Made by a program: the position numbers and the translations under genes. 28,354 bases of DNA, taken from positions 1 to 28,354 of the forward strand of contig LT635977.1 of the NCBI GenBank assembly GCA_900128565.1. Direction: 5' to 3'. The notes under the pieces are model-generated. The model was not told the DNA's origin. It saw only the letters and a list, made by a program, of their open reading frames with translations, and ran no database searches. Below are positions 1 to 18,527 of this stretch, one piece after another (positions within the stretch are counted from its first letter, which is position 1; each line of letters opens with the position of its first letter). This stretch comes from Stramenopiles sp. TOSAG23-6. Lineage: Eukaryota > Sar.

Positions 1-185
1 ATGTTTTAGGTTAGGGTTAGGGTAAAGACGAAAAAAAAAAAAAAAATAATTTTTGTTAGGTATGAAATTTCGTATGAAAAAAAAAAAAAAAAAAAAAATA
101 ATTTTTTTTAGGTATGAAATTTCGTATGAAAAAAAAAAAAAAAAAAAAAATCTCGGAATTGAATTGAAATGAATTGAAAACTAAC
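1..185 (-). repeat. Partial UBR intron with two tandem introner-like units
   Basis: Read in gene sense, the intron starts GTTAGTTTTC, then carries two near-identical units (TTTCATACGAAATTTCATAC, then CTAA) about 52 bases apart, separated by poly-T. It ends at the window edge after TTTACCCTAACCCTAACCTA. No acceptor is present, so the intron continues outside. The telomere-like piece points C-rich toward the 3' end, the wrong way round for a real chromosome end on this side. Confidence 0.75.
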
Positions 186-1258
186 ATTTGTCCACTACCT
201 TTTTTATCAATATCAAGAGCGATAGATTTACACATTTCATCATCAACACCAACTTTACTTAGAGCTGTATGTACTTCATCAAAAGTATGAACATCATCAT
301 TATGCATGAAAATAACCCACTTTTCCAATAGGGAACTAGGGTTAGGGCTACATTTACATTTCAAATCTGATTTTGACGATGAAAAAAAAGATTCTGCGAC
401 ACGCGCTCTTAGATCATTTTTTGTAATACAATCAGAAACATCTCCACCATTTTCTTTAATGATTACCTTGAGTTTCTTTACTGAACACTGTAATAAATCG
501 GGGAAAAAATATTCTACATTGTGTTCAGTGAAATTCTTGTCCCATTCAATTTCATTCTGCTTTTCGTTAAATTCTTGACGAGCAACAGATTGAAGTAAAG
601 CTTGGTCATCATAACAGCTAACACAGTGTTCTGCCGTTTCTCGGAGAAAGTCTACAGCACCAGCAATAACTGCAGGGGCTGATTGTTGTAGAGTTGGTGG
701 AAGACTCTGGAACGTCTCTGTCAAATCCTCATCAGTGTATGACCAATTTTCACTCAAATTAGTGTTTTCATCGCTTTCTTTATTAGTATTTGTTATAATA
801 TCTACACCACCATGAAGACAACAAAATCCTTTAGGGTTAATTGCCTCAGGATCACCACAATCACAACAACCTCCTTGTCCTTGACTACGGTAATAATGGA
901 ATTCGTGATCTACGTGATCTCCAGCTAAAAAACATTTTGCGCATAAAACACAAGTTGGATCAGCGGCACATGTTTTGCAAAAATATACAATATCTCCATG
1001 TTGAAACACCTTGCCACACAACTGAGATTTCGATGCATCTCCGTCACTAAAGGATTGTAAGTAGTTTTTTAAAGTCGAAACATCTAAACACTGCCTTTCT
1101 AACTCTGGCTCATCTAATAACTTTGTAGACAATAAAGTTGCTACGTTAGGTTTAGGATGAGAAATATCAGCATTCTCACCATCAGTGAAGCGACCTTCAT
1201 ACAATCTGCGCTTAATGTCTATATATAAATCATGATATCCAGTCCAATGCTCTACCAT
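186..1258 (-). CDS. UBR-box N-recognin E3 ubiquitin ligase, 5' part
   Basis: This is the N-terminal part of a UBR1/UBR2-type ligase, which binds destabilising N-terminal residues and marks proteins for proteasomal degradation. The UBR-box zinc finger spans about residues 81-149, with C81, C94, C97, C103, C106, C109, H115, H118, a CCDCGD cluster at 131-136, C146/C147 and H149. A ClpS-like N-degron-binding domain follows at about 312-357 (WVIFMHNDDVHTFDEV). The RING and C-terminal regions lie beyond the window. ATG is at 1258-1256 with an in-frame stop four codons upstream. I end the exon at a GTTAGT donor; an alternative GTAGTG donor lies 13 bases earlier. The open frame running on to 56 only translates intron poly-T. 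Residues SPNPSS (about 305) are encoded by a telomere-like CCCTAACCCTAGT. Family sure; exon end uncertain. Confidence 0.9.
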
Positions 1259-1544
1259 GATATTACTTTAGTAATTCTACTTTATCTAATATTGTATTCT
1301 TTGTAGGTAGCGATGATGATGAGTCATTCTTCTTCTTCTGTGTTTTTTTTTGCTGACTGAAAAAATTGAAACACGAAATACTGCGATTCTAGAATTAAAA
1401 AATCATATTATTTTGAAATATTCAATTTAAATTGCACAAGAAAAAAATCATATTTTATTTTTACAACAAAATTAAAAAAAAAAAGTATAAAAAAAATGGT
1501 ATGAAAATTCATAGCTATTACCTACAATACTCTATTCGTATACG
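1259..1544 (-). other. GAA1-UBR spacer with possible extra GAA1 exon
   Basis: In gene sense this follows the GAA1 stop and precedes the UBR ATG. It is AT-rich, then has a polypyrimidine tract ending CAGTCAG, then an open 29-codon lysine- and serine-rich stretch (1263-1352) that begins QKKTQKKKND and ends in TAA. If GAA1 exon 8 splices at GTGCAA (donor at 1553) to this acceptor, the frame stays open and GAA1 gains a basic tail, stopping only 4 bases before the UBR ATG. Otherwise this is 3' UTR plus a compact promoter. Confidence 0.45.
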
Positions 1545-4469
1545 TCATTGCACTTGCCCTGTAAATGCAATAGCCGTAGCAATAGAGTGTATAGGTGTAT
1601 AACAAATACAAATTAAAGGATAAATCCAATTTCCATAATTATTCCAATCATTTTTAAATGTTTCAAGATTCAATATTTCATGATGTACGCCAATACTATG
1701 ACTTATTTTTGGAATAAATACAAAAAATATCGAAACCGGTGATAAGAAGACTAAAAACAGTAACTGTATTGTAGAAAAATATTTCAAAAAAAATCTAAAA
1801 AAAAATTGTTAGGTACAAAATTTACTATAAAAAAAAAATTTAGACAAAAAATTGAAAAAATAAAATAAAATATACCTGAAGAACATCTTTCATTGTGATT
1901 GAATTTGTTGAGAGCAGTGGCTGAACTATTGTTAAAAATGGGACAGTGATTAATCCAGAAAGTACTATATTTTGGAAAAATATTTCAAAAAAAAATTAAC
2001 ATTAGGTACAAAATTATCTACGAAAAAAAATTAAAAAAAAAAGAAATTAAAATGAAAACTTGGGTTAGGGTTAGGGTTAACCTACAAGCAAGTGAAAAAT
2101 TGCCAAGGCCAAGGACAAGATGTATTGAAAGCCAAATAATGAGTGTTATAATTTTAACAGCCTGCCAACGACCAGTACGTCCCTTTGCGTACATTAAATT
2201 ATAACCGACATACATGAAAATTAAACCTTCCGTACATAGCATATATTTTGGAAAAATATTTCAAAAAAAAAATCTAAAAAATTTTGTTAGGTACAAAATT
2301 TACTATAAAAAATAAATTCGATTTTTTTTTTACGGAAAACAAAAAAAATAAATAAAACTTACATAATAATCAATATATTTTCTACAAAATTTCTACCTAC
2401 TAAAACATTATGAAAAAACAATGCAATCTTATTCAAAACCTCTACAAAAAAATCTCCGATACCATTTGTTTTGAAAACATCTAAAAAATAAAGTTTGTTT
2501 TTGTATTGTTCTAACGATTGTGTAGATACAATAAACAATATTCCCCCCATCGCAAAAGGTAGCAAGGATGGCCATATATTTAAAAAAAAAATTGAAATGT
2601 GAAAATTTGTTAGGTACAAAATTTCGTACAAAAAAAAAAAAAAATGTAAAAGTAAGGGTAGGGTTAGGGTTAACCTACATAGAGCACCGACAAAATCGAG
2701 TCTGTCCACGGAATAAATCAAACCTAAGATTTTTATAATTACAGGAATACATATCAAAAGCAAAACAAAACTATATTCACCAATAGTGACCATTAGTGTC
2801 GGAGAGGGTAATATATAAAACCATGTATTTTTTCAAAATATTTCAAAAAAAAATTTCAAATTTTTTGTTAGGTACAAAATTTCGTACGAAACGTTTTTTG
2901 GAAAAAAAATTTTAAAAAAATGTAAAATAATGAAAACCTACAAAATGATTGATGAAATCTTTCCTCTAAATTATTACTACAGTGTTACACAATATGTCAA
3001 ATTTGATATTTGTTAAAAACAAAAACTTGGTATGATTTTGATGTGTACCAAGAAATATATATATACTATTCAATAGGGTTAGGTTTGTTTTTTTAAGGTA
3101 GGGTTAGGGTTCGTATTTAGGTAGGGTTAGGGTTACGTACATACTTCGTAAAAGTTTTTCCACAAGAACACCAAATGATTTTGATCTTGCACCACCATAT
3201 GTCTTTCTACCAATTGTAACAGGTGTAATTGTCAACGCTTCAATATTATATTTACTAAAATGAGCATGAGGCCCTAATGGACCACGAGCAAGGCTTCCAC
3301 TAAAACGCAAAACTCCTGCCATTTTCTGAAGATAATCATTAAAATAATGTCGAAATTTTTTTGGAATGCAAAGAAGAAATTGTTTAAAATATGGCATGGC
3401 TATTACTGTAAATTTCGCAAAGGAATCAATATGTGCTGTTCTTGTCAACATGATTGGAACATCTGAAACTTTTTCAACAACATTAAACAAGTCCAAATTA
3501 GGTAATTGACCGTTTATACCAGGAAGAAGTGCTGCTATATTTTGGAAAAATATTTCAAAAAAAATTCTAAAAAATTTGTTAGGTACGAAATTTCGTACGA
3601 AAAAAAAAAAACANAANTTCGATGTTTTTTTACTTACCTATATGTGTAAAACGTCCAAAATCGACTGAAGCTTGAACAACAATTGCACCGCGAATCGTTC
3701 CAACACGCAGAAATGATTGTGATAGTTTAGGTTGTGGTAATGTGTATGCTTCAAGCCATGCTTCAATACCATATGACAAAGGTAATCCTTGTTGATTGTT
3801 TTGTTTTTGTTTTTTGTTTTGATTAGGGTTTTCCAGAGGATTGTTAAGATCAATATCTAATGGAATCAGAAGAACACAATCTTTAGCAAGCCAATTTAGT
3901 TTCGTTAACATTTCAAAAAGAGCTAAAGATGTTGCTAGTCCAGAGGTATAATTCGTATCCCTTGTAGTTGAGTGTAGTCTATTCTTACTTACATCTTCAT
4001 TAGCACCAGTGACGGCTAGTACCATGCCTTCAGCTCCAGAGGCTCTCGATGCCCTTAGAACTCCATATACATTATATCGCTCGACACCATCAACCTCATA
4101 ACGGTGAATATTTGCCTCTATACCCATATCTCTAAGGGTTGACAATAACCAATCACGACGTTGGTGAGACTTTGCACCAATTTTCGAAGGTGGCATTTCC
4201 CAAAATGCAGCGTCGAATTCTTTTGCACGCGATATCTCAGCATTGCTAAAAGAAACTAGCGATGAGCCAGGCATTAAGGCATTCTCAGATAGATACGTAC
4301 CCCTGCATTTCGTTTCACCACATGTTATACATGCGAGAGGGAATAAAGAAATCCATACAATACCAAGGATAAAGAAAAGTATTGAGAAAGCACTACGCCA
4401 CTTCCACACATTAGACGCTATTGAAACTTTATAATCAGGTGGCACTAATTTAGTGATGATGCTTCCCAT
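1545..4469 (-). CDS. GAA1: GPI transamidase subunit GAA1 (GPAA1), 8 exons
   Basis: Subunit of the ER-membrane complex that attaches GPI anchors to proteins. Exons in gene order: 4469-3638, 3534-3141, 2976-2942, 2822-2679, 2573-2363, 2240-2086, 1964-1876, 1763-1545; joined frame 692 codons, close to known homologues. An N-terminal membrane segment lies at about 28-48, followed by RGTYLSENALMPG (56-68). The lumenal domain holds NVYGVLRA, EAWLEAY, GINGQLPNLD (283-291) and HFSKYNIEAL (369-378). NNLEERFHQSF sits across a 35-base exon. Several membrane segments follow, with NFSLA at 586-590 and a C-terminus PIHSIATAIAFTGQ. These match the human GPAA1 pattern in order. Six of the seven introns carry the shared introner-like repeat. 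The joins for exons 3/4, 4/5 and 5/6 keep the frame only without an AG acceptor. A 9th exon at 1352-1263 is possible. Confidence 0.93.
1764..1875 (-). repeat. GAA1 intron 7, introner-like copy
   Basis: Donor GTATATTTTA, core AGTAAATTTTGTACCTAACA, 3' end GAAATATTTTTCTACAATA CAG. CAG is present at both junctions. Phase 0 join MKDVLQ-LLFLVFLSP. 112 bases. Confidence 0.85.
1965..2085 (-). repeat. GAA1 intron 6, introner-like copy with telomere-like 5' end
   Basis: Donor GTAGGTTAACCCTAACCCTA, nearly the same first 20 bases as intron 4; then TTTTGTACCTAATGTTAATT and GAAATATTTTTCCAAAATA TAG. It joins NFSLA to LLSGLITVPFL in frame. 121 bases. Confidence 0.85.
2241..2362 (-). repeat. GAA1 intron 5, introner-like copy without AG acceptor
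   Basis: Donor GTAAGTTTTA, core AGTAAATTTTGTACCTAAC, 3' end GAAATATTTTTCCAAAATA then TAT|GCTATG. TATG flanks both ends. Two upstream AGs (in TATAG and TTTTTTAG) cannot be used because in-frame TGA follows in TTTGAAATA. 122 bases. Confidence 0.65.
2574..2678 (-). repeat. GAA1 intron 4, introner-like copy with telomere-like 5' end
   Basis: Donor GTAGGTTAACCCTAACCCTA, then TTGTACGAAATTTTGTACCT, AACAAA and a degenerate 3' end TTTAAATATAT before GGCCATCC. TATG is shared by both junctions. No AG acceptor lies in the last 60 bases; the frame (ALW-PSLLPFAMGG) joins only at AT|GG. 105 bases. Confidence 0.65.
2823..2941 (-). repeat. GAA1 intron 3, introner-like copy without AG acceptor
   Basis: Donor GTAGGTTTTC, core TTTCGTACGAAATTTTGTAC then CTAAC, and 3' end GAAATATTTTGAAAAAATAC followed by AT and the exon (GGTTTTAT). 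Protein continuity (HQSF-WFYILPSP) needs the intron to end in AT, or an equivalent shifted boundary within the shared TG. No AG exists between the core and the exon. Confidence 0.65.
2977..3140 (-). other. GAA1 intron 2, telomere-like repeats, no introner core
   Basis: Donor GTACGTAACCCTAACCCTAC is followed by two further CCCTAA runs and AT-rich sequence, with acceptor CACTGTAG; 164 bases. The donor at GTACGT was chosen over GTATGT four bases earlier because only it gives the conserved LLRSINNLEERFHQSF. Confidence 0.75.
3535..3637 (-). repeat. GAA1 intron 1, introner-like copy, contains two N
   Basis: In gene sense it runs GTAAGT, then TTCGTACGAAATTTCGTACC, TAACAAATTTTTTAG, GAAATATTTTTCCAAAATA, TAG; 103 bases. 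The flanking exon end and the intron end share ATATAG, a possible target-site-like duplication. Ambiguous bases sit at 3614 and 3617. Splicing restores the codon for Ala278 and leads into AALLPGINGQLPN. Confidence 0.88.
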
Positions 4470-4960
4470 ACTCCGTGTTCCACGTTATCAAAGTAAATGT
4501 ATTAGATGTATTCTTGAAAGGTTTAATAATAAAACTTTTCAGTTATTAATGTTGTAAGCGCACACAGTCCTATAACTCGAACGACACTTGAGTTTGTCAA
4601 GGTATTTATAATTTGTAGTGCATTTGTAGTTTTGACTCAAGGGTATAAATTTTAAATGTTTTTTCGTGTTTTTTCCTAAAAATAATTAACTGTTCCTGTC
4701 TCTCAATACAAAATTATTATTTCATATTCTTGAATGATGATGATATATACTTTATGAGAAAGTTGTGGTCGAATGTTATCATTAGGAATTATTAAAAAGT
4801 TCTCTAATTTTGTTTCAAAATATTTTGATAATACCATTTTATATACATTTTGTACATTTATTATTTATCAAAAAAATAACATATATAACATGAAAAGTTA
4901 TCGAAAAAACAATACTGAACCAACTAGATATATTTACCCAATTGTTTTTCTAATTTCAAA
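4470..4960. promoter_or_regulatory. GAA1 upstream region and LRR 3' flank
   Basis: In GAA1 sense, an imperfect inverted motif (TTGACAAACTCAAG, five bases, TTCGAGTTA) at 4573-4600 lies 104-131 bases upstream of the ATG. A related motif occurs between the ankyrin and eIF2-alpha genes. The LRR-proximal part is direct-repeat copy 1 (4642-4932). No gene of its own is seen; short open frames here are AT-rich and lack recognisable features. Confidence 0.5.
4642..4932. repeat. Direct repeat flanking the LRR gene, copy 1
   Basis: Closely matches 6413-6611 over about 190 bases (for example TCTCAATACAAAATTATTAT and GTGGTCGAATGTTATCATTA). This copy has an extra stretch of about 98 bases (about 4800-4897) bounded by AAAAGTT on both sides. 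Its LRR-proximal end carries a decayed LRR codon remnant (TGAACCAACTAGATA). Confidence 0.8.
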
Positions 4961-6304
4961 TCAATGTAAAAAACCAAAAAAATTTGTTAGTTGACCAATT
5001 TCCTCTGGTATTCGACCAGATAGGTTGTTTCTCTGCAAATCCAATCTAACAAGACTTGTTAGTTGACCAATTTCTTTTGGAATGGAGCCAGATAGTTTGT
5101 TGAAACCCAAATTCAAATTTTCAAGTTTTGTTAGTTGCCCAATTTCTTTTGGTATAGAACCAGATAGGCTGTTGTCTCCCAAGATCAAACGTTCAAGATT
5201 TGTTAGTAGACCAATTTCAGTTGGTACTGCACCAGATAGTTGGTTGTCGTTCAAGTACAATCTAACGAGACTTGTTAGTTGACCAATTTCTTTTGGAATT
5301 GTACCAGATAGTCTGGTGTTGAACAAGTAAAAATTTACAAGACTTTTTAGTTGACCAATTTCCGTTGGAATCGGATCAGATAGTTTGTTGTGAGACAAGG
5401 ACAAATCTCTTAGCTTCGTTAGTTGACCAATTTCTTTTGGAATTGCACCAGATATTTGGTTTTTCCGCAAAATCAATTCTTTGAGCTTTGTTAGTTGACC
5501 AATTTCCGAAGGTATTGGACCAGATAGTTGGTTGATACGCAAGTCCAAAACTTTGAGATTTCTTAGTAGACCAATTTCTGCTGGGATTGAGCCAGATAGT
5601 TTGTTGAATGGCAAGGACAATTGAGTGAGACTTGATAGTTGACCAATTTCTGTTGGTATTGAACCAGTTAGTTGGTTTTCGTCCAAGATCAAATCTTGGA
5701 GCTTTATTAGTTGACCAATTTCCGTTGGGATTGAACCAGTTAGTTCGTTGTGATTCAAGATTAACATTTCAAGATTTCTTAGTAGACCAATTTCCGTTGG
5801 TATTGAACCAGATAGGTTGTTGCTCCACAAGTGCAATTTAGTAACCCACCCTCTTTCATTACACGTTACTCCATCCCATGTACAAATATCTTGATCTGTC
5901 TTCCAATTTTTATTACGACTCCAATTGATTCCACCTGTAGTATCATACAATACAGTTAAAGCATTTCTTTCCAATTCCTTACGAATACCTTCTAGACGGC
6001 GTAGCCATTGAATTGATGACTCATCTTTATGTTGATTGACGGAATTAATATCTACATTTCCACTCGATAATTGCATCAGTTCTTTCACCATTTTAGATGT
6101 ACGAAGTGCGCGTATGCCAAATTCAACTTCACTTGCCTTGTTCATCGCACGTGAAACAGCAGAGAAACTACCTAAATCGCTGCGAGATAATTGCGAAGTA
6201 GGACCTCCTCTTAGGCCTAGTGTAATTTCTGCTGTTGTAGCTCCTTTACTTTCTCTTATACTTATTATCATCAATAATAGCAGCACAATACAGAGATAAT
6301 TCAT
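4961..6304 (-). CDS. Secreted leucine-rich repeat protein
   Basis: 447 residues from the ATG at 6304-6302. A signal peptide occupies about residues 1-20 (MNYLCIVLLLLMIIS). A spacer is followed by a cap at 115-155 of the form ALxxLYxxTGGxxW...CTWDGVTC (C141, C148), then twelve 24-residue repeats from about 157 to the end with consensus LxLxxNxLSGSIPxEIGQLxxL. This is the plant/stramenopile-type LRR class, with probable extracellular ligand binding. There is no transmembrane or kinase domain. It ends abruptly after repeat 12 (NFFGFLH, stop), without a C-terminal cap, so truncation or an unseen intron is possible. Extending upstream to 6484 would need a non-ATG start. Repeats are also near-identical at DNA level in 72-base steps. 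Ligand and role are unknown. Confidence 0.9.
   Translation of the reverse strand: MNYLCIVLLLLMIISIRESKGATTAEITLGLRGGPTSQLSRSDLGSFSAVSRAMNKASEVEFGIRALRTSKMVKELMQLSSGNVDINSVNQHKDESSIQWLRRLEGIRKELERNALTVLYDTTGGINWSRNKNWKTDQDICTWDGVTCNERGWVTKLHLWSNNLSGSIPTEIGLLRNLEMLILNHNELTGSIPTEIGQLIKLQDLILDENQLTGSIPTEIGQLSSLTQLSLPFNKLSGSIPAEIGLLRNLKVLDLRINQLSGPIPSEIGQLTKLKELILRKNQISGAIPKEIGQLTKLRDLSLSHNKLSDPIPTEIGQLKSLVNFYLFNTRLSGTIPKEIGQLTSLVRLYLNDNQLSGAVPTEIGLLTNLERLILGDNSLSGSIPKEIGQLTKLENLNLGFNKLSGSIPKEIGQLTSLVRLDLQRNNLSGRIPEEIGQLTNFFGFLH
4970..5840 (-). repeat. 72-base tandem repeats encoding twelve LRRs
   Basis: Each unit carries CAACTATCTGGTTCAAT-like and GAAATTGGTCAACTAA-like segments in gene sense. 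The close DNA similarity, not just protein similarity, suggests recent expansion or ongoing gene conversion between units. Confidence 0.85.
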
Positions 6305-6780
6305 TTTGAAAAATAGTTGCAAATGTATTTTGTTTTCAATATACAAATGGTAGAATTGATACCACGAGGTAAATTCTGAGTTCCTGAAGTCAAGCTCCTT
6401 GGTCAGCTGATCGGTATAAATTTTACATTTTTCTTGTTTTTTCGTGTTTTTTCGTAAAAATAATTGACGGTTCCTGTCTCTCAATACAAAATTATTATTT
6501 CATATTCTTGGATGATGATGATTACTTTATGAGAAAGTTGTGGTCGAATGTTATCATTAGGAATTATTAAAAAGTTCTATCGAAAAAACAATATTGAACC
6601 AGATAGTTTGAAAGATGCAAAAGCAAACAACACGTTTTTTAACTTTTTTAAAAATACGTAGTTTTTTATAGTAGCAATATCTATATAGTAGTAAATTCTA
6701 AATTCGTTACGGTACGAAAGAAAATTCCGTACTAAACAATTTTTTTTTCAGGCAGGGTTAAAGTTTTCACCCCCTTGTTT
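6305..6780. other. LRR upstream and ankyrin 3' flank, with repeat copy 2
   Basis: The LRR-proximal part holds the 5' UTR/promoter (polyA-rich, with CAGCTG). Next is direct-repeat copy 2. Near the ankyrin gene there is a decayed stretch with TTAACCCTGCC and a degenerate introner-like core (TTTAGTACGGAATTTTC). No further gene is supported. Confidence 0.5.
6413..6611. repeat. Direct repeat flanking the LRR gene, copy 2, with LRR relic
   Basis: Matches 4642-4932 without the 98-base extra stretch. At 6593-6611, in LRR sense, it reads TCAAACTATCTGGTTCAATA, which is codons for KLSGSI of an LRR unit, followed by unrelated sequence. This suggests that an upstream LRR paralogue once stood here and that the repeat is the shared 3' flank of a former tandem array. 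Confidence 0.7.
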
Positions 6781-7466
6781 TCACCATGTACAAGGAACCG
6801 GCCAAAACCACAGATTACAAAGAATTGGCCAATTTTCATCATTAGGACTACTAGGGTTAGGGTTATATGTGGCTTTATTGTCATTATACTGTGACGGAGA
6901 TAATTTTGATTTGTTTGACTGGTGTAATCTATCGAGATAATCTTCAATCACTGCAACATTTATTGTTTTTTTTCCAAAAAAAAAAAAAAAATCGTTAGGC
7001 AAAAAATTTAGTACGAACGAAAAAATAAATTCAAAAAGTGAAAACGTACATCATCAAGAGCACCAGCTGAGATTAACAATCTTACTATTTCAGAGTGGCC
7101 ATTATTTGCAGCCCATAGCAAAGCAGACTGATTGTTATGATCTTTTGCATTGCAAGAAGCTCCAGCCTGCAACAAAAGATTTACTGTGCGAATATAACCG
7201 TGTCGCGCTGCCCAAAGGAGCTTGATATCCAGTAGATGTGGTGCAAGTTTTTCATTGACTGTTTCGTCTGATTTCAGCTTCTCCAAAGTTCTGAATGTTG
7301 GATTTGTTGGATTTGTTGGATTTGTTGCATTTGTTCTAATTGCCAGTTTTGAAGGTTTTGAACTTGAGTGTCCACGAATTGCAGAAATGGTTACCGTTGG
7401 AATGGTTAATAAAATTACAATACACACAACGAAACAATGCCTTGTGATGACAAGAAGATGAGCCAT
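6781..7466 (-). CDS. Signal-peptide ankyrin-repeat protein, 2 exons
   Basis: Exon 1 is 7466-7050 (139 codons): hydrophobic N-terminus at about 10-28 (signal peptide or anchor), an NPT triplet repeat at 49-57 (9-base DNA repeats), then two ankyrin repeats at about 79-111 and 112-139 (LLWAARHGYIRTVNLLLQAG; ALLWAANNGHSEIVRLLISA). Exon 2, about 6950-6781, encodes VIEDYLDRLHQSNK and ends PVPCTW-stop, with YNPNPSSP coded by a telomere-like run. The obvious splice (GTACGT to TTGCAG) would put TGA first in exon 2. The frame is kept only by a weaker donor GTTTTC four bases on, or by a boundary at GCA|GTG. So the protein is either 139 residues or about 196. Partner unknown. Confidence 0.75.
6951..7049 (-). 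repeat. Ankyrin-gene intron, diverged introner-like copy
   Basis: In gene sense: GTACGTTTTC, then TTCGTTCGTACTAAATTT, TTGCCTAACGA, a long T run, GGAAAAAAAAC and TTGCAG. The TTCGTAC...CCTAAC order matches the other introns, but the 3' end has lost the GAAATATTTTTCC block. About 99 bases. Confidence 0.65.
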
Positions 7467-7909
7467 ACGTAACTAAAATGTGTTTTGTTCTTTCTCTCGT
7501 CTTGCAATTACTAATAGATACCGATATAGACTACTTGAATGTTCAAATCGGGAATGTTAATACTGGGTTCACAATAGTTTATGTTCGTTGAGCAAGAGTT
7601 GAGAATTTAATGATTTTTACTGCTGCTGTCATTAACTCGAACTTGAGTGTTGACATCAACACAAACAAACACAAAACAAAAACAAAAAACAAATCAAAAA
7701 TTATTTTTCTTGTTTTTTCGTGACTTTTTTTTTCTTTTTTTCACTAAAGATACCCGGTACTAGTTATCACCATGAAAATTCACACGATTGAGATGCACAC
7801 GCGTAGAAATTTAGGTATCAAATTCTTATACGAAAATATGGAACTGAACATAAACTTTGACTACGTACACAATCAACATATATACAGATATATCGTTTGT
7901 ATAATCAGA
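7467..7909. promoter_or_regulatory. Divergent promoter between ankyrin and eIF2-alpha genes
   Basis: 443 bases between the two ATGs. At 7633-7655 lies TAACTCGAACTTGAGT plus GTTGACA, related to the motif upstream of GAA1 but without its five-base spacer. An A/C-rich tract (about 7655-7700) is followed by a T-rich tract (about 7706-7741). An in-frame upstream ATG at 7772 (context CACCATGA) would add 46 residues to eIF2-alpha. Confidence 0.55.
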
Positions 7910-8872
7910 ATGGCGGCCGAAAGTACTGATAATGATCACGATGAGCCAACTGGTGTATTTCGCAATGCTACTGAGGAAGAACACATGAGTAAGTGTCGTT
8001 ACTATAAACAGCGTTTTCCAGAAGTTGAAACGTTGGTAATGGTAAACGTTAAAAAAGTCGAGGCATTGGGAGCTTACGTCTCGTTAATGGAGTACAACAA
8101 TATTGAAGGTATGGTTCTTCTTTCAGAGCTTTCACGCAGACGTATTCGATCAATCAACAAACTCATTCGTGTAAACAGACAAGAGGTGGTATTGGTACTT
8201 CGTGTTGACAAGGAAAAGGGATATGTGGATTTGTCTAAACGCCGTGTCCCTGCAGAGGATGTCGCTAAATTCACTGCCCGCTACAACAAGTCTAAGACAG
8301 TACATAGTGTTTTGTTGAACGTTGCTAGAAAGTGCAAAGTGTACATCGAAGACCTCTATAAGAATATTGCATGGCCATTGTCTAAAAAGTACGGTCATGC
8401 ATTCGATGCTCTTAAAGTTGCGGTTACAGATCCAGAAAACGTCTTCAGAGGTTTGGATATTCCAGAAAACATCATGAGAGCTCTTATGAAGGACGTCAAC
8501 CGCAAACTTGCTGCAAAAGCGATTAAAGTCCGTGCAGATATTGAACTTACATGTTTTACAGTAGAAGGTATTGACGCAATCAAAGCTGCACTTTCTGCGG
8601 GAAAGACAATTTCAAAGACTGAAAGCATGTCAATCAAATTAGTTGCTCCCCCATTGTATGTTATGCAATTGAACACGCTTGATAAAAATGCTGGTATTGA
8701 AACCTTGAATAAATCGATTGAAAAGGTCAAAGAAGTGATTACTGAAAAGGGTGGAAGTATTAATGTTAAAGTTGCACCACATGCGACAAATAATGAACAG
8801 GACGCTGAGTTGCATGAAACTATGATGGCCCTTGCAAAGGCGAATATGGAGGTTGATGGTGATGCTGAATGA
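7910..8872 (+). CDS. Translation initiation factor eIF2 subunit alpha
   Basis: 320 residues from the ATG at 7910 (MAAESTDNDH). eIF2 carries initiator tRNA to the ribosome, and its alpha subunit is the target of stress kinases. An S1-type RNA-binding domain lies at about 38-112 (VMVNVKKVEALGAYVSLMEY), followed by the helical domain and the C-terminal alpha/beta domain. The phosphorylation loop LLSELSRRRIRSINKL is intact, with Ser75 equivalent to Ser51 of animals and yeast, and the kinase-docking sequence KGYVDLSKRRV is also present. It is intronless. The frame is open back to an ATG at 7772, but that extension has no counterpart in known eIF2-alpha, so I start at 7910; Met26, just before CRYYKQRFPEVE, is the other candidate. 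Convergent with the coiled-coil gene. Confidence 0.96.
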   Translation: MAAESTDNDHDEPTGVFRNATEEEHMSKCRYYKQRFPEVETLVMVNVKKVEALGAYVSLMEYNNIEGMVLLSELSRRRIRSINKLIRVNRQEVVLVLRVDKEKGYVDLSKRRVPAEDVAKFTARYNKSKTVHSVLLNVARKCKVYIEDLYKNIAWPLSKKYGHAFDALKVAVTDPENVFRGLDIPENIMRALMKDVNRKLAAKAIKVRADIELTCFTVEGIDAIKAALSAGKTISKTESMSIKLVAPPLYVMQLNTLDKNAGIETLNKSIEKVKEVITEKGGSINVKVAPHATNNEQDAELHETMMALAKANMEVDGDAE

Positions 8873-9239
8873 ACTATTAACGAATCCTCACTAAGCGCAT
8901 TCTCATTTGATTTCGCGAAATGATGTGGTTTGCTTATTCCACATTCGCTTGAGTGACACTCAATCAAGTTAAAACATGGTAGCAAATTGTGTGAATATGG
9001 TTTACCTTTTAAATTGTATTTGATATAGTTTGATTGAATATAAATAAAAAGAATATTGAAAGATGAGTTTTTTTTCATACGAAATTTTGTACCTAACCAA
9101 AAAACAAATTTAATAGTGTCAGACAATTTCGTATGGATGTTTGTATTTTTTTCAAATACAATTGTACTATACTCTTAGTTTTTTAATAATCTAACTTTTT
9201 TATGATTCAGGATGTATTTATAATATTATATATCAAAAA
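8873..9239. other. Convergent intergenic region with stray introner-like core
   Basis: 3' ends of eIF2-alpha (+) and the coiled-coil gene (-). It includes TTGAGTGACACTCAA (8950-8964), able to form a short hairpin, a possible polyadenylation signal AATAAA near 9043, and at 9071-9098 TTCATACGAAATTTTGTACC followed by TAACC. That core has the same orientation as eIF2-alpha but no evident splice sites fitting a coding intron; it could mark a 3'-UTR intron or a dead copy. Confidence 0.55.
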
Positions 9240-9827
9240 TTACCTCAAATTCGGTTTCCGTTTTCTACTACTTTGGCGTATTGGCTGAACTATTTTTCTA
9301 GGTGACTGTGTTTTTGAAATTCCTAATTTACTCAAAAGTTCTTTTTCTTTTGCTTTCCTCTTTGCAGCAGCTTCACGGGCTTTCTGTTCGCGAATTATGG
9401 AACGCTTTTCTTTTTCCTCTGCCCTCCGTTGGCGATCAGAGGCAGTTCGAATAAATTTTAACCAACGGCGCCTCTGAGCAGGTGTAGCCATGAGGTCACT
9501 TCTAAGCACTAATTCCTCTAATAATAGTTTCTGTTCCACTGGAATATCAGGAGAACGCACTTTATTTATAAGGTCATTCACCTCTTTTGTCATCACGGTA
9601 CATTTTTTTTTAATTTCCTCCATTCTTTCGTTATTCTCTCGTTTTCTTTTTCGTAAAGCTGCAGAACGTTGCTTTGAATTTGGAAGCGGAACAACATGAA
9701 AAGCTGACAGTCTATCAAAAACATCTTGTAGAGAAGTAAATTGAGTCACATGCCGAGGATAATACACATCAACCCAATCGCGTAAGTAAATGTCACCGAT
9801 GCTAGTTTTAGAGGGAGCTGTTGACAT
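9240..9827 (-). CDS. Basic coiled-coil protein of unknown function
   Basis: 195 residues, ATG at 9827-9825. I do not recognise the family. The N-terminal 50 residues look folded (YLRDWVDVYYPRHVTQFTSL). Charged, heptad-like helices follow at about 52-90 and 130-168, rich in Arg/Lys/Glu, with LLLEELVLRSDLM and TPAQRRRWLKFIRTASD between them. The tail QSSRKRKPNLR could be a nuclear localisation signal. The C-terminus reads AATTTGAG|GTAATT, so a donor site may overlap the stop and the protein may be longer. It shares a divergent promoter with the beta-hydroxylase-like gene. A nuclear or chromatin role is only a guess from composition. Confidence 0.75.
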   Translation of the reverse strand: MSTAPSKTSIGDIYLRDWVDVYYPRHVTQFTSLQDVFDRLSAFHVVPLPNSKQRSAALRKRKRENNERMEEIKKKCTVMTKEVNDLINKVRSPDIPVEQKLLLEELVLRSDLMATPAQRRRWLKFIRTASDRQRRAEEKEKRSIIREQKAREAAAKRKAKEKELLSKLGISKTQSPRKIVQPIRQSSRKRKPNLR

Positions 9828-10064
9828 TTCAACTCCTTTCCAATGCGTTTCTTAAGATTAGTAAACTTTTGTTACATCGCCGCGAGAATGATGATATTAT
9901 TTTGACAAAGTTTGACAAGTTGGTTAGAATTGCCACGTGGCACCAATTTAAATTTCTGTTAACAATGTAACATTAGTCAACTTTACACGTAGTACGTACG
10001 CTAAAATTTTCTTGATTGTATGCCAAGATAAATAAATCCACTCTTTAATTTGTCTATTTTGACA
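9828..10064. promoter_or_regulatory. Bidirectional promoter with 12-base palindrome, copy A
   Basis: Between the coiled-coil (-) and beta-hydroxylase-like (+) genes. At 9931-9986 it carries TGCCACGTGGCA (G-box core CACGTG), then AATTTAAATTTCTGTTA, 14 extra bases, and GTCAACTTTAC. The same block occurs in the promoter at 12890-13139. bHLH or bZIP factors bind such cores in plants and algae; the factor here is unknown. Confidence 0.7.
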
Positions 10065-11981
10065 ATGATGCGATGCGGATTGATATTTTTTATTCTACTT
10101 ATTCAAAAGCATTCAATTGGGATAACAGGTCTACATTCTCTTTCTTTCAACCCAGTGTCTTCGTTAGGTTCAGAAAGTGAGCATGAAGTCGCTGACCGTG
10201 TTTTGCTTTTATCAAATAAACTTCAACAATTTCATAGAAAAAAAGAAGCAACTGTTGCTGCCTGGTATGGCGAACAATTGTTTTTAAATTCTCTAGACAC
10301 GAGAAACGTATCTTCTAGGGCTGAAAAGATTATACCAATGCCACCAACAAGAATATTATATTTGATTTATAGAAAGTTGCTCCTTCGTTGTCGAATCTGC
10401 GAAGCAGCTATACTTGGACACAAATTAGAGGAATCATATCATTCATTGCTTGTGGAGATTCATTTTGCAATGATTGCACGACTACAACACGAAGTAGCTG
10501 TATCTTCATCGAGTGTCTTTAGTCGCAAACTTGTCCATTCTTTAATAGCAATTTCTTTTAAATTTCTTGGTGGCTGTACTCCCGAACACTCTAAACCAAA
10601 CGAAATAAAAATATTTACTAGCGGACGTTTTATTTCAGTGACCCACTTTTTGAAGACATTTGGTACCCCTGTATTTCATTTCAAAAAGGCTGCTAGTTCT
10701 TCACCAATTTGTCTATCAGAAGCTGAAGATATTGACGACTTTGAAACAAAAATAGTTGAATCTGCTGCGTTTCATTTAGGAATTCAACACGCACATTGCG
10801 TTGAATTATCGACAAGTGACACAAAAAGTGAAACACAACACAAAATGAGAGAAAGTGAGGTACAACATAAAATGAGAGACGCATTGACTGTATATTTGAG
10901 AGTATTCAATGTGTGTATATCATCTCAATTTCAACATTTCAATTTTGATTCCAAGGGAAATAGATTAGGGTTAGGGTTACACTCTTCTATCTGTTCTTTT
11001 GTTGATTGTGAAGAAATTGTTATAAAAAAAGATTTATTAGACACGAATTTACTCCCAGATGTAATGGGTTCCAAGCAGTTTACATTGTCAGTATTACTCA
11101 AAAAGGGAAATTTATTTTTGACAAGAAATAACATCATCAAAAGTGCAGCTCGGAAAATTATACTTTTACTTCATCAAACAGTGAATATTTCATGTACAAA
11201 ATCAAAGATAATTAAATCAATATTTGAAGTTCTTCGAAAGTATAATATTGTATTATGGAAGGATCATTTTCAATTACCTGAACATTATTTAATACGTCTA
11301 AGAGCATATCCATGGTGGACAGAAAAAATTCAGTTTCAAAATGGAATTTATTGGAGGGAATTACAAAGTATTGTGAATGAACTTGAGTCTAATGCACCAA
11401 TTATTATAAAAGAATTAAAGAAGCTTTTGCAATCTTCATTTCAACAAGATGAACCAAAACATAAAGATTCATTATTCTCAGCTGCACTGCTTGATACAGA
11501 TTTACTGAAGAAAACAACGCAAAACAATACAAAACGAAATACCACCAAATCTAGTTGGTCGTCTTTTCTTTTAGCCATTAATGGAGTGTGGAACGAGGAA
11601 GCATGTAAAAGAGCTACACACGTCTGTAAGATATTACAGAAAACACAATTAATATCAAATCGAAGAGGATGTGTAAATAATCAAAATGTATCGGGCTCTG
11701 TGTCATTCCTTAAATTAGGACCCCGTTCAAGTCTCAAGTTACACACTGGTCCAACAAATTCCCGATTGACGATACATTTACCTCTAATTGTTCCTGAATC
11801 ATTCATAAGCTCTGAGAGTACCAGTGGATTGAATGTAGGCTATGAGACAAGGCCATTGCGCGTGGGGAAGGTAGAAGTATGGGATGATTCTTTTGTACAT
11901 TATGCATGGAATATATCAACAATTAAGTCAAGGTATGCTTTAGTTGCGCATATTTGCCACCCTGATATTTTAGAGGATTGA
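10065..11981 (+). CDS. Aspartyl/asparaginyl beta-hydroxylase-like oxygenase
   Basis: 638 residues from ATG 10065 (MMRCGLIFFILL); the frame opens further upstream only with TTG. A signal peptide or anchor spans about 1-21, suggesting entry into the secretory pathway. Residues 30-500 are helical and unrecognised. The C-terminal 110 residues match the Asp/Asn beta-hydroxylase fold: SFLKLGPRSSLKLHTGPTNS, RLTIHLPLIVP, LRVGKVEVWDDSFVHYAWN, then RYALVAHICHP. Probable iron ligands are H560 (HTGPTN) and H612 (VHYAWN), the two-histidine set of this family. It is 2-oxoglutarate dependent by family knowledge; the substrate is unknown. It is intronless. RLGLGL (about residue 305) is coded by a TTAGGG run. 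Convergent with the next gene, 101 bases apart. Confidence 0.85.
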   Translation: MMRCGLIFFILLIQKHSIGITGLHSLSFNPVSSLGSESEHEVADRVLLLSNKLQQFHRKKEATVAAWYGEQLFLNSLDTRNVSSRAEKIIPMPPTRILYLIYRKLLLRCRICEAAILGHKLEESYHSLLVEIHFAMIARLQHEVAVSSSSVFSRKLVHSLIAISFKFLGGCTPEHSKPNEIKIFTSGRFISVTHFLKTFGTPVFHFKKAASSSPICLSEAEDIDDFETKIVESAAFHLGIQHAHCVELSTSDTKSETQHKMRESEVQHKMRDALTVYLRVFNVCISSQFQHFNFDSKGNRLGLGLHSSICSFVDCEEIVIKKDLLDTNLLPDVMGSKQFTLSVLLKKGNLFLTRNNIIKSAARKIILLLHQTVNISCTKSKIIKSIFEVLRKYNIVLWKDHFQLPEHYLIRLRAYPWWTEKIQFQNGIYWRELQSIVNELESNAPIIIKELKKLLQSSFQQDEPKHKDSLFSAALLDTDLLKKTTQNNTKRNTTKSSWSSFLLAINGVWNEEACKRATHVCKILQKTQLISNRRGCVNNQNVSGSVSFLKLGPRSSLKLHTGPTNSRLTIHLPLIVPESFISSESTSGLNVGYETRPLRVGKVEVWDDSFVHYAWNISTIKSRYALVAHICHPDILED

Positions 11982-12082
11982 AAAATAAAAACAGTCCAAT
12001 CACTTTTATTATATCTTTCTTCACTGTATGAACATTAGGTTTGGAGTTTAGCCAAAACACCGAAATGCAATTAAAGTCATTA

Positions 12083-12889
12083 CTAGCGTCTCCATCTTGT
12101 CCCAGCAGCGAATGCCGCCAACATTCCAGAAATCAGAAGTGCCTCACGACTTCGAAGAAAGTCAAAAGCTGAATCAACAACATATCCAACAAAATCTTGT
12201 TCGTTAGATCCTTGTGGAACGCGTGCTCCATTATCCGCAGCCTCACCACTGGAACCACCACCACTACCATTACGTAAAAAACCACCATTAAGTGAAAAGG
12301 TGTTTAATACATAATAGAAAAGACGTAACATGCGCTTAGCTTCATCTTTCTGTTCCCGTCTGAAAGAAGGGACACTGCCAACGTTTTCAACGTTTTGTAA
12401 ATGTCCTTGTGGAGCGAGTGTTTCGTTTCCACCAAGTTGTAAAGTTGGAATCGTTGCTGGCATAGTATTAATATTCGCCATCATTGGAATGGAAGAAGTT
12501 CTAGGAAAGACAGCATTTCTTTTGTTTGCAAGCGCATTCATTGGGATGGAAACAGTTCTTTCAAGACCTTCATCCAAAGCTTTGTTTCTTCTGTTTTCAA
12601 TCGCTATCATTGGGATGGAAGAAGTTCTTAAGAGGAGAGCATTCAAAGCTTCGAGTTTTCTGTTGTTTTTTTCTGCTTCTGCTTCTGCAATCATAATTTT
12701 GAGAGCTAGAGCATCTCTTTCGATGTCCTCTCTTTCGATGTCCTCTCTTTCGATGTCCTCTCTTTCGAGGTTTCCAGACTCTGTCATACCAGGTCCACCA
12801 TCATCTTGAACTATTCCATTACTCATATGAATAGCATTAACAATATATGTAGTAGTCACAACGAGAAAAATGTTGAGAATTAATTTCAT
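12083..12889 (-). CDS. Secreted repeat-containing protein of unknown function
   Basis: 268 residues, ATG at 12889-12887. Signal peptide at about 1-19 (MKLILNIFLVVTTTYIV). An acidic EREDI tandem repeat at 42-58 is followed by a helical Ala/Glu segment, then three RT(S/V)SIPM blocks (SIPM at 91-94, 114-117 and 133-136), a Gly/Ser linker at about 208-218 and a hydrophobic C-terminus at about 250-262 that could be a membrane anchor, ending TRWRR. No known domain is recognised. An opposite-strand open frame over the same DNA is a shadow, since only this strand gives a signal peptide and coherent repeats. It shares a divergent promoter with the 2OG dioxygenase. Confidence 0.75.
   Translation of the reverse strand: MKLILNIFLVVTTTYIVNAIHMSNGIVQDDGGPGMTESGNLEREDIEREDIEREDIERDALALKIMIAEAEAEKNNRKLEALNALLLRTSSIPMIAIENRRNKALDEGLERTVSIPMNALANKRNAVFPRTSSIPMMANINTMPATIPTLQLGGNETLAPQGHLQNVENVGSVPSFRREQKDEAKRMLRLFYYVLNTFSLNGGFLRNGSGGGSSGEAADNGARVPQGSNEQDFVGYVVDSAFDFLRSREALLISGMLAAFAAGTRWRR
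12710..12769 (-). repeat. 15-base tandem repeat, four units
   Basis: Unit in gene sense ATCGAAAGAGAGGAC, four copies with the outer two slightly changed. It encodes the EREDI repeats of the secreted protein and is likely length-variable between strains. Confidence 0.9.
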
Positions 12890-13139
12890 GGTAGCATTTC
12901 TCTATTGTTTTTTATGCGGTTTTAATGAAAACGGCATTAAAAAACATAAGATATTAAAAGATATGAATATACTCAGCGTATACGTTATAGTACGGTTGTC
13001 AAATACACGAAATGCCACGTGGCACTAATTTAAATTTCTGTTAGTCAACTTTACGTTATGCGTACCTAGGCTATATGAATTTTCAATTATTATTATTGTC
13101 CAATCAATCTATATAAAAAGCAAAAAAGAGTGAAACAAG
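12890..13139. promoter_or_regulatory. Bidirectional promoter with 12-base palindrome, copy B
   Basis: Between the secreted repeat gene (-) and the 2OG dioxygenase (+). At 13013-13054 it carries TGCCACGTGGCA, AATTTAAATTTCTGTTA and GTCAACTTTAC in the same order as copy A but without the 14-base insertion. Similarity fades into CGTAC and GGCTA words downstream. Confidence 0.7.
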
Positions 13140-14087
13140 ATGACGCTTAAAAGCCAATATATGGTTGGCCACTTTCATGACTGTAAATTACCAATTTGTA
13201 AAGCGTGGGAAAAGTCTTCTGAAAATACGACTACAGCTTTACGCAAAGATAAAAATACTGGACAATCTATGCAAACATCAACGAAATACACGTTGAAAGG
13301 GGGGGAATGTCAAAGTCTGCCGTATCTCCGTCTCTTTGGATTTTGTCCAGCCCCACAACAACCAGTTGTAAGAGTTCTTGATCTAAACAATAGTGAATCA
13401 TTCAATGTACGACCTATTAGTCACGAGAGTCTTTATATATCTCCTACTGCTTCAAAACTATTCTTTGCATATATTTGTCCGAATGCCCTATCAATAGATC
13501 AGTGTCAGGATATCCTAACGATGGCACAACATCACACAGCTCTTTATGGTTGGAGAACTACTAGACATGTTGAACATAACACTACGGACTTCTCCATCAG
13601 GGATTCAATTGGTCTTTTTCAATATGTTGAACCTATAATTCAAAATGTCATCAATCCAACTCTGAAATCGTTGTTTTTTCCAGACTGCGAAATTACTCTT
13701 GATATCGAAGATCTTTTCATAGTAAAGTATGATTCTGACGGACAGTCTAAACTTGGAGCTCATCGTGATGGTACATTAATTTCATTTAATATTGCTTTGA
13801 ATGATCCAAAAGAGTTTTCAGGTGGAGGTATGTTTTATTTTATTTTTTTTTGAAATTTTTTTTTTTTTATTTTTTTATGGAAAATAAAAAAAAAAAAATT
13901 TTGTACCTAACAAATTTTTTTTTTTTTTCGGTAAAAAAATTTTGAAATATTTTTCCAAAATACAGGGACAACATTTTTAGGAGCTGAGACTACTATTAGA
14001 CCAAATAATATTGGTGATTGTATATCACATTGTGGTAAAATATTACATCAAGGTGAACAAATTTATTCAGGTGTCAGATTTATCTTG
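13140..14087 (+). CDS. 2-oxoglutarate/Fe(II) dioxygenase, truncated by palindrome centre
   Basis: Exon 1 is 13140-13827 and exon 2 is 13966-14087; 270 residues are visible and the 3' end is missing. The double-stranded beta-helix core is clear: GAHRDG with H208 and D210, SGGGTTF across the splice, the distal ligand H257 (HCGKILHQG) and R267 (GVRFIL) for the 2-oxoglutarate carboxylate. This layout is typical of the prolyl/lysyl hydroxylase branch; the substrate cannot be told. There is no signal peptide. The N-terminal 100 residues are unrecognised. The intron join (GGA G|GG ACA) gives the conserved glycines. At most a short C-terminal exon is lost at the fold-back, since the catalytic core is nearly complete. 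Confidence 0.88.
13828..13965 (+). repeat. Dioxygenase intron 1, introner-like copy
   Basis: Donor GTATGTTTTA, long A and T runs, core AAATTTTGTACCTAACAAA, 3' end GAAATATTTTTCCAAAATA CAG. The palindromic TTCGTACGAA part is replaced by A-rich sequence. 138 bases. Confidence 0.85.
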
Positions 14088-14177
14088 GTAAGTGTTTCAA
14101 AACCCTAACCCTAATAAAATGAAAAAAAAAAAATTATGAAATTTTGTACCTAACCAAAAAAAAAAAAAAAAAAAAAT
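14088..14177 (+). repeat. Dioxygenase intron 2, introner-like copy cut at the centre
   Basis: Donor GTAAGTGTTTC, then AAAACCCTAACCCTAATAAA, ATGAAATTTTGTACCTAACC and the central A run. The 3' half with the acceptor is absent because the sequence turns back here. Confidence 0.8.
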
Positions 14178-14199
14178 ATTTTTTTTTTTTTTTTTTTTT
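14156..14199. other. Palindrome centre: 21 A, TA, 21 T
   Basis: The two arms meet with no spacer between 14177 and 14178. The junction is a run of 21 A, the dinucleotide TA and a run of 21 T. It lies inside the second intron of the 2OG dioxygenase gene, just after a GTACCTAACC motif. Other copies of this intron family also pass from an A run to a T run here, so the spot is naturally self-complementary and a plausible fold-back point. Confidence 0.95.
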
Positions 14200-14267
14200 G
14201 GTTAGGTACAAAATTTCATAATTTTTTTTTTTTCATTTTATTAGGGTTAGGGTTTTGAAACACTTAC
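14178..14267 (-). repeat. Mirror of dioxygenase intron 2 (partial)
   Basis: Reverse complement of 14088-14177. Together the two half-introns face each other across the centre. Confidence 0.8.
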
Positions 14268-15215
14268 CAAGATAAATCTGACACCTGAATAAATTTGTTC
14301 ACCTTGATGTAATATTTTACCACAATGTGATATACAATCACCAATATTATTTGGTCTAATAGTAGTCTCAGCTCCTAAAAATGTTGTCCCTGTATTTTGG
14401 AAAAATATTTCAAAATTTTTTTACCGAAAAAAAAAAAAAATTTGTTAGGTACAAAATTTTTTTTTTTTTATTTTCCATAAAAAAATAAAAAAAAAAAAAT
14501 TTCAAAAAAAAATAAAATAAAACATACCTCCACCTGAAAACTCTTTTGGATCATTCAAAGCAATATTAAATGAAATTAATGTACCATCACGATGAGCTCC
14601 AAGTTTAGACTGTCCGTCAGAATCATACTTTACTATGAAAAGATCTTCGATATCAAGAGTAATTTCGCAGTCTGGAAAAAACAACGATTTCAGAGTTGGA
14701 TTGATGACATTTTGAATTATAGGTTCAACATATTGAAAAAGACCAATTGAATCCCTGATGGAGAAGTCCGTAGTGTTATGTTCAACATGTCTAGTAGTTC
14801 TCCAACCATAAAGAGCTGTGTGATGTTGTGCCATCGTTAGGATATCCTGACACTGATCTATTGATAGGGCATTCGGACAAATATATGCAAAGAATAGTTT
14901 TGAAGCAGTAGGAGATATATAAAGACTCTCGTGACTAATAGGTCGTACATTGAATGATTCACTATTGTTTAGATCAAGAACTCTTACAACTGGTTGTTGT
15001 GGGGCTGGACAAAATCCAAAGAGACGGAGATACGGCAGACTTTGACATTCCCCCCCTTTCAACGTGTATTTCGTTGATGTTTGCATAGATTGTCCAGTAT
15101 TTTTATCTTTGCGTAAAGCTGTAGTCGTATTTTCAGAAGACTTTTCCCACGCTTTACAAATTGGTAATTTACAGTCATGAAAGTGGCCAACCATATATTG
15201 GCTTTTAAGCGTCAT
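14268..15215 (-). CDS. 2OG/Fe(II) dioxygenase, mirror copy, truncated
   Basis: Exon 1 is 15215-14528 and exon 2 is 14389-14268, with the introner-like intron at 14390-14527. Identical to the gene at 13140-14087, including the cut after intron 2 begins. Catalytic residues as described there. Confidence 0.85.
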
Positions 15216-15465
15216 CTTGTTTCACTCTTTTTTGCTTTTTATATAGATTGATTGGACAATAATAATAATTGAAAATTCATATAGCCTAGGTACGCATAAC
15301 GTAAAGTTGACTAACAGAAATTTAAATTAGTGCCACGTGGCATTTCGTGTATTTGACAACCGTACTATAACGTATACGCTGAGTATATTCATATCTTTTA
15401 ATATCTTATGTTTTTTAATGCCGTTTTCATTAAAACCGCATAAAAAACAATAGAGAAATGCTACC
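15216..15465. promoter_or_regulatory. Mirror of bidirectional promoter copy B
   Basis: The conserved block with TGCCACGTGGCA lies at 15301-15342. Same sequence as 12890-13139 reversed. Confidence 0.65.
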
Positions 15466-16272: not shown

Positions 16273-16373
16273 TAATGACTTTAATTGCATTTCGGTGTTT
16301 TGGCTAAACTCCAAACCTAATGTTCATACAGTGAAGAAAGATATAATAAAAGTGATTGGACTGTTTTTATTTT

Positions 16374-18290: not shown

Positions 18291-18527
18291 TGTCAAAATA
18301 GACAAATTAAAGAGTGGATTTATTTATCTTGGCATACAATCAAGAAAATTTTAGCGTACGTACTACGTGTAAAGTTGACTAATGTTACATTGTTAACAGA
18401 AATTTAAATTGGTGCCACGTGGCAATTCTAACCAACTTGTCAAACTTTGTCAAAATAATATCATCATTCTCGCGGCGATGTAACAAAAGTTTACTAATCT
18501 TAAGAAACGCATTGGAAAGGAGTTGAA
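18291..18527. promoter_or_regulatory. Mirror of bidirectional promoter copy A
   Basis: The conserved block lies at 18369-18424. Same sequence as 9828-10064 reversed. Confidence 0.65.

Follow-up and report, generated by a model that had tools for sequence, protein, structure and literature searches.

An introner-like repeat family whose apparent 3' splice sites copy a 2-bp direct repeat in a stramenopile genome

A contig of Stramenopiles sp. TOSAG23-6 (LT635977.1, positions 1 to 28,354; this whole analysed stretch of 28,354 bases is hereafter the window) raises the question of why introns of unrelated genes should share the same sequence blocks, and how such introns end and multiply. An earlier note on this DNA had proposed that a sense-oriented, introner-like repeat family supplies introns in a GAA1 gene, a UBR-box gene, an ankyrin gene and a dioxygenase gene. 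The answer that we consider probable, as judged from sequence, is a non-autonomous introner family resembling miniature inverted-repeat transposable elements (MITEs), which would insert as DNA, be removed by the spliceosome and use a copy of the target dinucleotide as its 3' splice site.

The family extends well beyond the window. In the host assembly, which is partial (8,027,113 bases in 408 contigs), the core word GAAATATTTTTCCAAAATA occurs 510 times against 0 for its reversed control, and GTACGAAATTTTGTACCTAAC occurs 553 times, again with a control count of 0. A profile built from 34 copies identified 42 copies of at least 20 bits in a 200-kb sample (L009-L028), with the family present on 16 of the 20 contigs. 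This sample, comprising parts of 20 among the longest contigs, is the only set chosen blind to the repeat; those chosen by similarity or by an exact core lean to young copies. More than 500 copies thus carry the exact core, and scaling 42 copies per 200 kb suggests that the whole assembly holds perhaps ~1,700 copies. The viral contigs contain no copy of the core, and an Rfam scan of 15 loci (150 kb) returned no match. The median pairwise identity of 46 copies (8 of an initial 54 were left out of this identity and pairing set) is 74%, with a maximum of 96%, against 53% for 60 shuffled pairs. A search with a 94-base consensus gave 1790 first-look candidates, 40 of which were scored and yielded 41 matches; 40 of these, spread over 38 contigs, share 94-99% identity with the consensus across at least 88 bases, and the remaining one is a partial match at 90%. 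Such identity to one consensus makes the spread look recent. Moreover, linkage is seen between the two 5' variants of the family and its two 3' ones (Fisher p=0.003), as expected of lineages.

Could these simply be ordinary introns, alike since splicing in this species demands long motifs, with no mobility involved? The core is indeed recognisable in 80 of 81 copies, with GTACCTAA agreeing in 73-80 of 80 copies at each position, and some exon gaps without a profile match (L003 and L018) resemble divergent members. However, the high identity to the consensus runs across nearly the whole unit, spacers included, and the linked subfamilies and the direct repeats described below also speak against it; further, intron 2 of the GAA1 gene in the window can do without the family motifs. 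We regard this explanation as very unlikely. The gaps mentioned above belong to a set of 93, each of at most 350 bases between same-strand coding blocks, of which 35 have a family match and 58 do not; 14 of the latter were inspected, and at least two (the above L003 and L018) resemble divergent members while most others look intergenic or like shadow frames, so that no family share of all introns is claimed.

The unit spans ~90-100 bases and has the form GTATGTTTTA...CGTACGAAATTTTGTACCTAAC...GAAATATTTTTCCAAAATAC, typically bounded on either side by a copy of AT. It carries GTAYGT, the block GTACCTAAC and a CTAAC-like branch site, and the median distance between the branch A and the 3' end is 39 nt (50 copies). 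Its putative terminal inverted ends, GTAT...ATAC, measure 4 bp, or 6 bp with the AT repeat, and in the predicted fold of the consensus a helix of AUGUAU and AUACAU spans the two splice sites. In single copies this end pairing is slightly above that of shuffles (median -2.45 versus -1.4 kcal/mol), with 4 of 46 copies beyond the 5% point. A conserved RNA hairpin at the core was also considered: GTACGAAATTTTGTAC is near-palindromic, yet only its right half is almost invariant and the left one is variable, so that we do not claim a maintained stem.

The same signals bear on the possibility that these are introns of the minor, U12-type spliceosome, with an AT-rich 5' site, an extended branch motif and relaxed ends. 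The family may look loosely U12-like through ACCTAAC, its extended branch block, and through GTATGTTTT, and U12 introns do tolerate odd ends. Against this, their branch-to-end distance is shorter than the median measured here, and zf-U11-48K (PF05253) found no match in the incomplete assembly. Accordingly small is the weight that we give to U12-like splicing, which we consider about as improbable as motif-constrained ordinary introns.

The AG at the 3' end of introns is among the most conserved eukaryotic signals, and the reading frames around the copies mostly place the end elsewhere. Exons were joined at GT at the start and at ..ATA+NNN at the end, the ends being called by motif. Of the 51 copies with a usable frame in a set of 54, 41 have their longest open frame at the called end. 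In a set of young copies (n=35; of 40 stretches, four had no unit found and one duplicate flank was dropped), it is the best in 29, the other six comprising three ties, one copy in which the open frames differ by 3 bases, and two with ends called one base off. In the largest set, the 146 unique copies among 160 calls above the score thresholds (copies below threshold being uncounted), it is best in 76 of 95 informative copies (p about 1e-20 against a one-in-three expectation). Thus, in most informative copies the frame is restored by removing the unit together with one repeat, as is the conserved protein at each of the seven junctions discussed below. Unspliced read-through is possible in only seven of the 76 frame-best copies, and the length is not divisible by three in 54 of them. 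The last dinucleotide is AT in 40, AG in four and another in 10 of the 54 copies; among the 146 it is AT in 100, TT in 17 (some of which are taken for misplaced ends), AG in seven and another in 22, and no AG end is found among the 35 young copies. Together with gapless protein alignments, these frames point to ...AATACAT as the usual 3' end.

Seven junctions could be aligned without gaps to homologous proteins, namely those in RPA2, USP, SETD3 (three junctions), GAA1 (intron 3) and SENP/Ulp1, and six of the seven offer no AG. The RPA2 junction FRS^VHRG is gapless against three solved RNA polymerase I subunits; as its left flank is TCA and its right end CAT, no slide of the boundary yields GT-AG or AT-AC. 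The three SETD3 junctions are gapless against ten homologues, and the first of them (GC..AG) is the sole AG-ended one among those tested. The 120 matches listed include no GAA1 or SETD3 model from the same species. These junctions weigh on the reading that the copies are canonical GT-AG introns whose ends were misplaced in our analysis. In its favour, seven of the 146 copies do end in AG, and the ends were called by motif rather than from RNA. Nevertheless, beyond the six junctions without AG, an in-frame AG lies within 18 nt in 19 of 50 non-AG copies as compared with 400 of 1013 control positions, and hence is no commoner than expected, and the absence of AG ends from the young copies is likewise at odds with it. 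Misplacement as a general account is thus highly improbable.

What, then, sets the last two bases? Within a copy, the bases to the left of the unit match those at its right end above random pairing. In a set of 47 copies (10 of the 54 with hand-judged misplaced ends were left out and three added), position -2 matches in 35 against 28.3 expected (p=0.0005) and position -1 in 41 against 37.7 (p=0.024). In a larger set of 126 (the 146 minus 19 that favour another frame and one whose flank is short), the corresponding figures are 98 against 85.8 and 110 against 100.1, both with p below 1/3000. In the young copies position -1 is significant (p=0.0003), and both AC cases pair AC with AC. Ends other than AT equal the left dinucleotide in five of nine cases in the 46-copy set (p=0.0003) and in 10 of 29 in the larger set (0 of 20000 trials). 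The seven AG-ended copies among the 146 have AG on the left in four cases, AT in two and AA in one. At the right end of the young copies the dinucleotide is preceded by C in 33 of 35, whereas the corresponding position on the left is free; we therefore take the duplication to be 2 bp long and the unit to be GTATG...AATAC. Taken together, the last two bases appear to act as a target-site duplication of 2 bp, which is usually AT and also AC, AG, TT or CT.

Two other accounts of the matching ends were rejected. Base pairing is not their cause: AG/AG, TT/TT and AC/AC are identities and not complements, so that they agree with duplication but not with pairing. The first 47 copies hinted, in their right flank, at a longer duplication of 4-5 bp (ATGTA), which is absent in the young ones. 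Separately, one copy with a changed 3' end (L038, G000:C333:10074-10382) lies between direct repeats of ~11 bases, CAAAAGCTCAT, and not of two; it may mark a different insertion event.

It is because of the duplication that we infer mobility as DNA. Staggered cuts would generate the 2-bp repeat, with the enzyme encoded elsewhere. The spliceosome would then remove the unit with the help of the GTAYGT 5' splice site and the CTAAC branch site that the element brings along, and the 3' splice site would be the copied target dinucleotide, so that most of these introns would be of the GT..AT and not of the GT-AG type. Position past the branch A, perhaps aided by the AUGUAU/AUACAU helix, would determine the 3' site in place of AG. 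The main rival concerns the mover: the same introns could have spread by intron transposition, that is, reverse splicing into sense transcripts followed by reverse transcription and recombination. Copies are sense-only where orientation could be judged, and this route was argued by Verhelst et al. for the introners of Micromonas, reported only in transcribed regions and in sense orientation (PMC3879977). However, an intron that moves by reverse splicing takes a fixed 3' end with it. In this family the terminal dinucleotide varies in step with the left flank (AT/AT, AG/AG, TT/TT, CT/CT, AC/AC), the pattern predicted for a staggered-cut duplication. We accordingly hold reverse splicing to be unlikely, though deserving of more credence than any other alternative weighed in this work.

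The orientation of the copies was scored for those of at least 20 bits in 246 kb (the 200-kb sample plus targeted stretches), with one duplicate of 81 dropped. On every scorable flank, 51 of the 80 copies show a sense coding signal; none is antisense and 29 are unclear. A distribution mostly between genes and in both orientations, which the earlier note had named as contrary to its claim, was therefore not seen, and the notion of introner-like, sense-oriented repeats in unrelated genes is upheld and extended assembly-wide by the exact-word, profile and consensus searches. Under insertion as DNA, antisense insertions could not be spliced and hence would be lost.

A further alternative is that the copies are not introns at all and that they are DNA elements precisely excised from the genome during development, for which the internal eliminated sequences of ciliates offer the comparison. 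The 2-bp direct repeats, the short inverted ends GTAT/ATAC and the precise restoration of frames would fit this. It is opposed by the strand bias of 51 to 0 and by the polar order of 5' site, branch site and T-rich tract; moreover, we know of no developmental DNA excision in stramenopiles. Of all the alternatives, this appears the most far-fetched.

Several observations weigh against the MITE-like reading, or lend it less than might appear. The ends were set by a motif, and a start had to be G followed by T or C; thus, although the starts in the raw listing are GTATGT/GTACGT-like, the count of 142 GT and four GC starts among the 146 copies is not independent of that requirement. Another frame is favoured by 19 of the 95 informative copies (likely misplaced ends, nested copies or decayed genes), and 51 of the 146 are uninformative. 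The left and right dinucleotides are unequal in 48 of the 146, partly through misplaced ends; in the young copies position -2 by itself is not significant (p=0.059), because nearly all are AT; and there are weak unexplained signals at +7 (p=0.04, n=47), -3 (p=0.013) and +3 (p=0.027; both n=126). Solved-structure searches gave no usable junction for an asparagine-synthetase-like (none), a DDX11/FANCJ-like (weak) or a VPS53-like gene (none). The rarity of copies outside genes is weak support, given that ~83% of the 200-kb sample scores as coding under a rough model; the strand bias says more. As for the machinery, one transposase family tried (PF13359) found no match in the partial assembly, with a control that gave a signal in one of 14 genomes. 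An Rfam search of that assembly for the U2 small nuclear RNA likewise found no match, though its control was silent in all 14 genomes and the search is not informative; pattern searches for U2 and U6 found nothing there and are equally uninformative. On balance we still favour the MITE-like introner family. With less assurance, we lean to the broader proposition that GT..AT introns derived from a recent introner burst constitute the main intron class of this lineage, with the 3' end set by branch distance and end pairing and with AG ends being accidental.

Returning to the window, it is a perfect inverted repeat: positions 14178-28354 are the exact reverse complement of 1-14177 (14177 nt, 100%), with the centre AAAAATATTTTT lying within the A/T-rich stretch of a family copy. 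This palindrome is read as a short-read assembly artefact caused by the repeat. Copies in the right half are consequently mirror images, copy counts in the window halve and the independent part is 1..14177. Similar features occur elsewhere in the assembly: contigs C2, C4 and C37 show mirrored match positions (perfect or apparent palindromes), by which assembly-wide totals are inflated; several contigs start or stop within a family copy, read as a repeat-caused assembly fault; and C13 and C14 appear to be near duplicates with a 2-base offset.

Within the independent half, the GAA1 gene on the minus strand has seven introns, six of which belong to the family as the earlier note had claimed; it had overlooked the other. 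From the 5' end of the gene, these are intron 1 (3535..3637; GT-AG, TAG on both sides); the non-family intron 2 (2977..3140; GT-AG, no family profile match), whose junction RS^INN is gapless against a solved GAA1; intron 3 (2823..2941; GT..AT), at whose junction HQSF^WFYIL two solved GAA1 proteins align without a gap; intron 4 (2574..2678; GT..AT, TAT on both sides, frame only), with a telomere-like CCCTAACCC near its 5' end; intron 5 (2241..2362; GT..AT, AT on both sides, frame only); intron 6 (1967..2081); and intron 7 (1764..1875; GT-AG, CAG on both sides, frame only). In intron 6 a TAG end shifts the frame, which is kept with GT..AT (end ..AAAATAT), so that GT..AT or another odd boundary is demanded by the frame; homology does not settle the boundary, and comparison with solved structures did not resolve the junctions of introns 4-7. 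The predicted spliced product has 694 residues and a stop. As intron 2 is a gapless GT-AG intron without a family match, canonical introns are also present in this genome.

The ankyrin gene (Pfam Ank; minus strand) has one family intron at 6958..7049 (GT..AT, left GAT, right AAT; the frame was read by hand from the open reading frames (ORFs)). The gene that the earlier note had called a dioxygenase, on the plus strand, has a complete first family intron at 13828..13965 (GT-AG, AG on both sides, its exon 1 without a Pfam match) and a second at 14088..14177 (core ~14138-14154), which is cut by the palindrome centre, so that only the first of the two claimed there is whole. At the contig end lies a doubled partial core at 28..161 on the minus strand (profile matches at 48-84 and 102-138, 22 and 17 bits), at the 3' end of the UBR-box ORF (56-1267, minus; Pfam zf-UBR and ClpS), just as partial and doubled as had been described. 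The shared blocks of these genes, all in gene orientation, are hence borne out by our analysis. The TAG or CAG ends claimed for them are not: only three of the eight complete family introns in the left half are AG-ended (1764-1875 and 3535-3637 in GAA1; 13828-13965 in the dioxygenase), the other five ending in AT with the frame kept, though less surely so for intron 6 of GAA1. The claimed length of 100-140 bases holds in part, with window copies spanning 92-138 bases and the 54-copy set having a median of 98 and a range of 82-138. The copy most clearly outside any recognised gene is an isolated core fragment of 33 bases at 9067..9099 on the plus strand (25 bits), between the eIF2alpha ORF and the GLTSCR1-domain ORF.

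Telomere-like CCCTAACCC stretches lie inside the introns at 2977-3140, 2574-2678, 1967-2081 and 14088-14177, and at ~1888-2026 of L003, where the stretch occupies the expected place of the TACCTAAC branch block and may act as a branch site. They number nine in the left half of the window and eight in the 200-kb sample, against two in one shuffled 200 kb; none occurs in the 146 copies of the unique-copy set.

A Pfam scan of ten left-half ORFs recovered the UBR box/ClpS, GAA1, leucine-rich repeats, ankyrin, eIF2alpha, the GLTSCR1 domain and an Asp/Arg hydroxylase; three of the ten had no Pfam match, including an inner GAA1 piece and the above exon 1. The leucine-rich repeat ORF (4961-6499) has a regular repeat of 72 bases (24 residues) in at least 10 units, with no family match inside, and a 99-base direct repeat (92% identical; 4646-4744 and 6424-6522) brackets most of it. 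The eIF2alpha gene (7910-8869) is identical to the EukProt protein GSMAST32.ASY1.ANO1.1032.1 across all 281 residues of the latter. The host, an uncultured marine protist, is thus probably a MAST-3 stramenopile, as read from the name of this match alone. Single-cell genomes of MAST-3 are described in the consulted excerpts of Seeleuthner et al. (PMC5778133), and the link of GSMAST32 to them is again a reading of the name. The EukProt model, the sole match of this kind found, lacks the first 25 residues of the window gene and 14 internal ones, which are encoded by a GT...AG stretch and are present in two homologues; the 14-residue gap is probably a false intron cut out. This exemplifies how annotation that assumes GT-AG may have left errors in some of the public gene models for such protists. 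More generally, a choice of 3' splice site independent of AG is a testable claim, and hundreds of similar introns differing naturally in their last two bases offer a ready-made experiment on 3'-site choice and intron birth.

How does this family compare with known systems, as represented by excerpts of the papers cited? The introners of Micromonas are conserved repeat introns that occupy numerous novel positions in genes; they lie in sense orientation only, and non-canonical splice sites are frequent among them (Verhelst et al. 2013, PMC3879977). The present family likewise comprises sense-oriented repeat introns in many genes with frequent non-canonical sites; it differs in belonging to an unrelated lineage and in its usual non-AG 3' end, which tracks a 2-bp direct repeat. 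Splice sites supplied by target-site duplications are described for several introners (Gozashti et al. 2022, PMC9860276). Among these, the introners of Chrysochromulina are similar in that the element carries the 5' site and the duplication supplies the 3' end; however, theirs is a 4-bp duplication, whereas here it is 2 bp and mostly AT, so that the co-opted end is not AG (PMC9860276). The words MAST and stramenopile have 0 occurrences in the main text of that paper, the species tables of which lie in the supporting information. In Amoebophrya, over 60% of introns are non-GT-AG with RNA-seq support, and part of them are introners with direct repeats of 3-5 nt (Farhat et al. 2021, PMC7789003). 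The direct repeats over exon borders, and possibly the inverted ends, are shared with our family; in Amoebophrya, though, both ends vary without a clear signature (PMC7789003), whereas here such freedom is confined to the 3' end, the 5' and branch sites being conventional. Further, Amoebophrya is a dinoflagellate and the host here a stramenopile. Most introns of hemistasiid diplonemids also lack GT-AG, and base pairing can join their ends; unlike here, they have no conserved 5' site, a branch motif in few introns and, in the excerpts, no single repeat family described (PMC12621601). Our searches of the open-licence literature listed no paper on introners, or on introns without a terminal AG, in MAST-3, supplements being outside that scope. 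As far as this search reaches, the lineage, the 2-bp rule and the combination of conventional 5' and branch signals with a mostly non-AG 3' end appear to be new.

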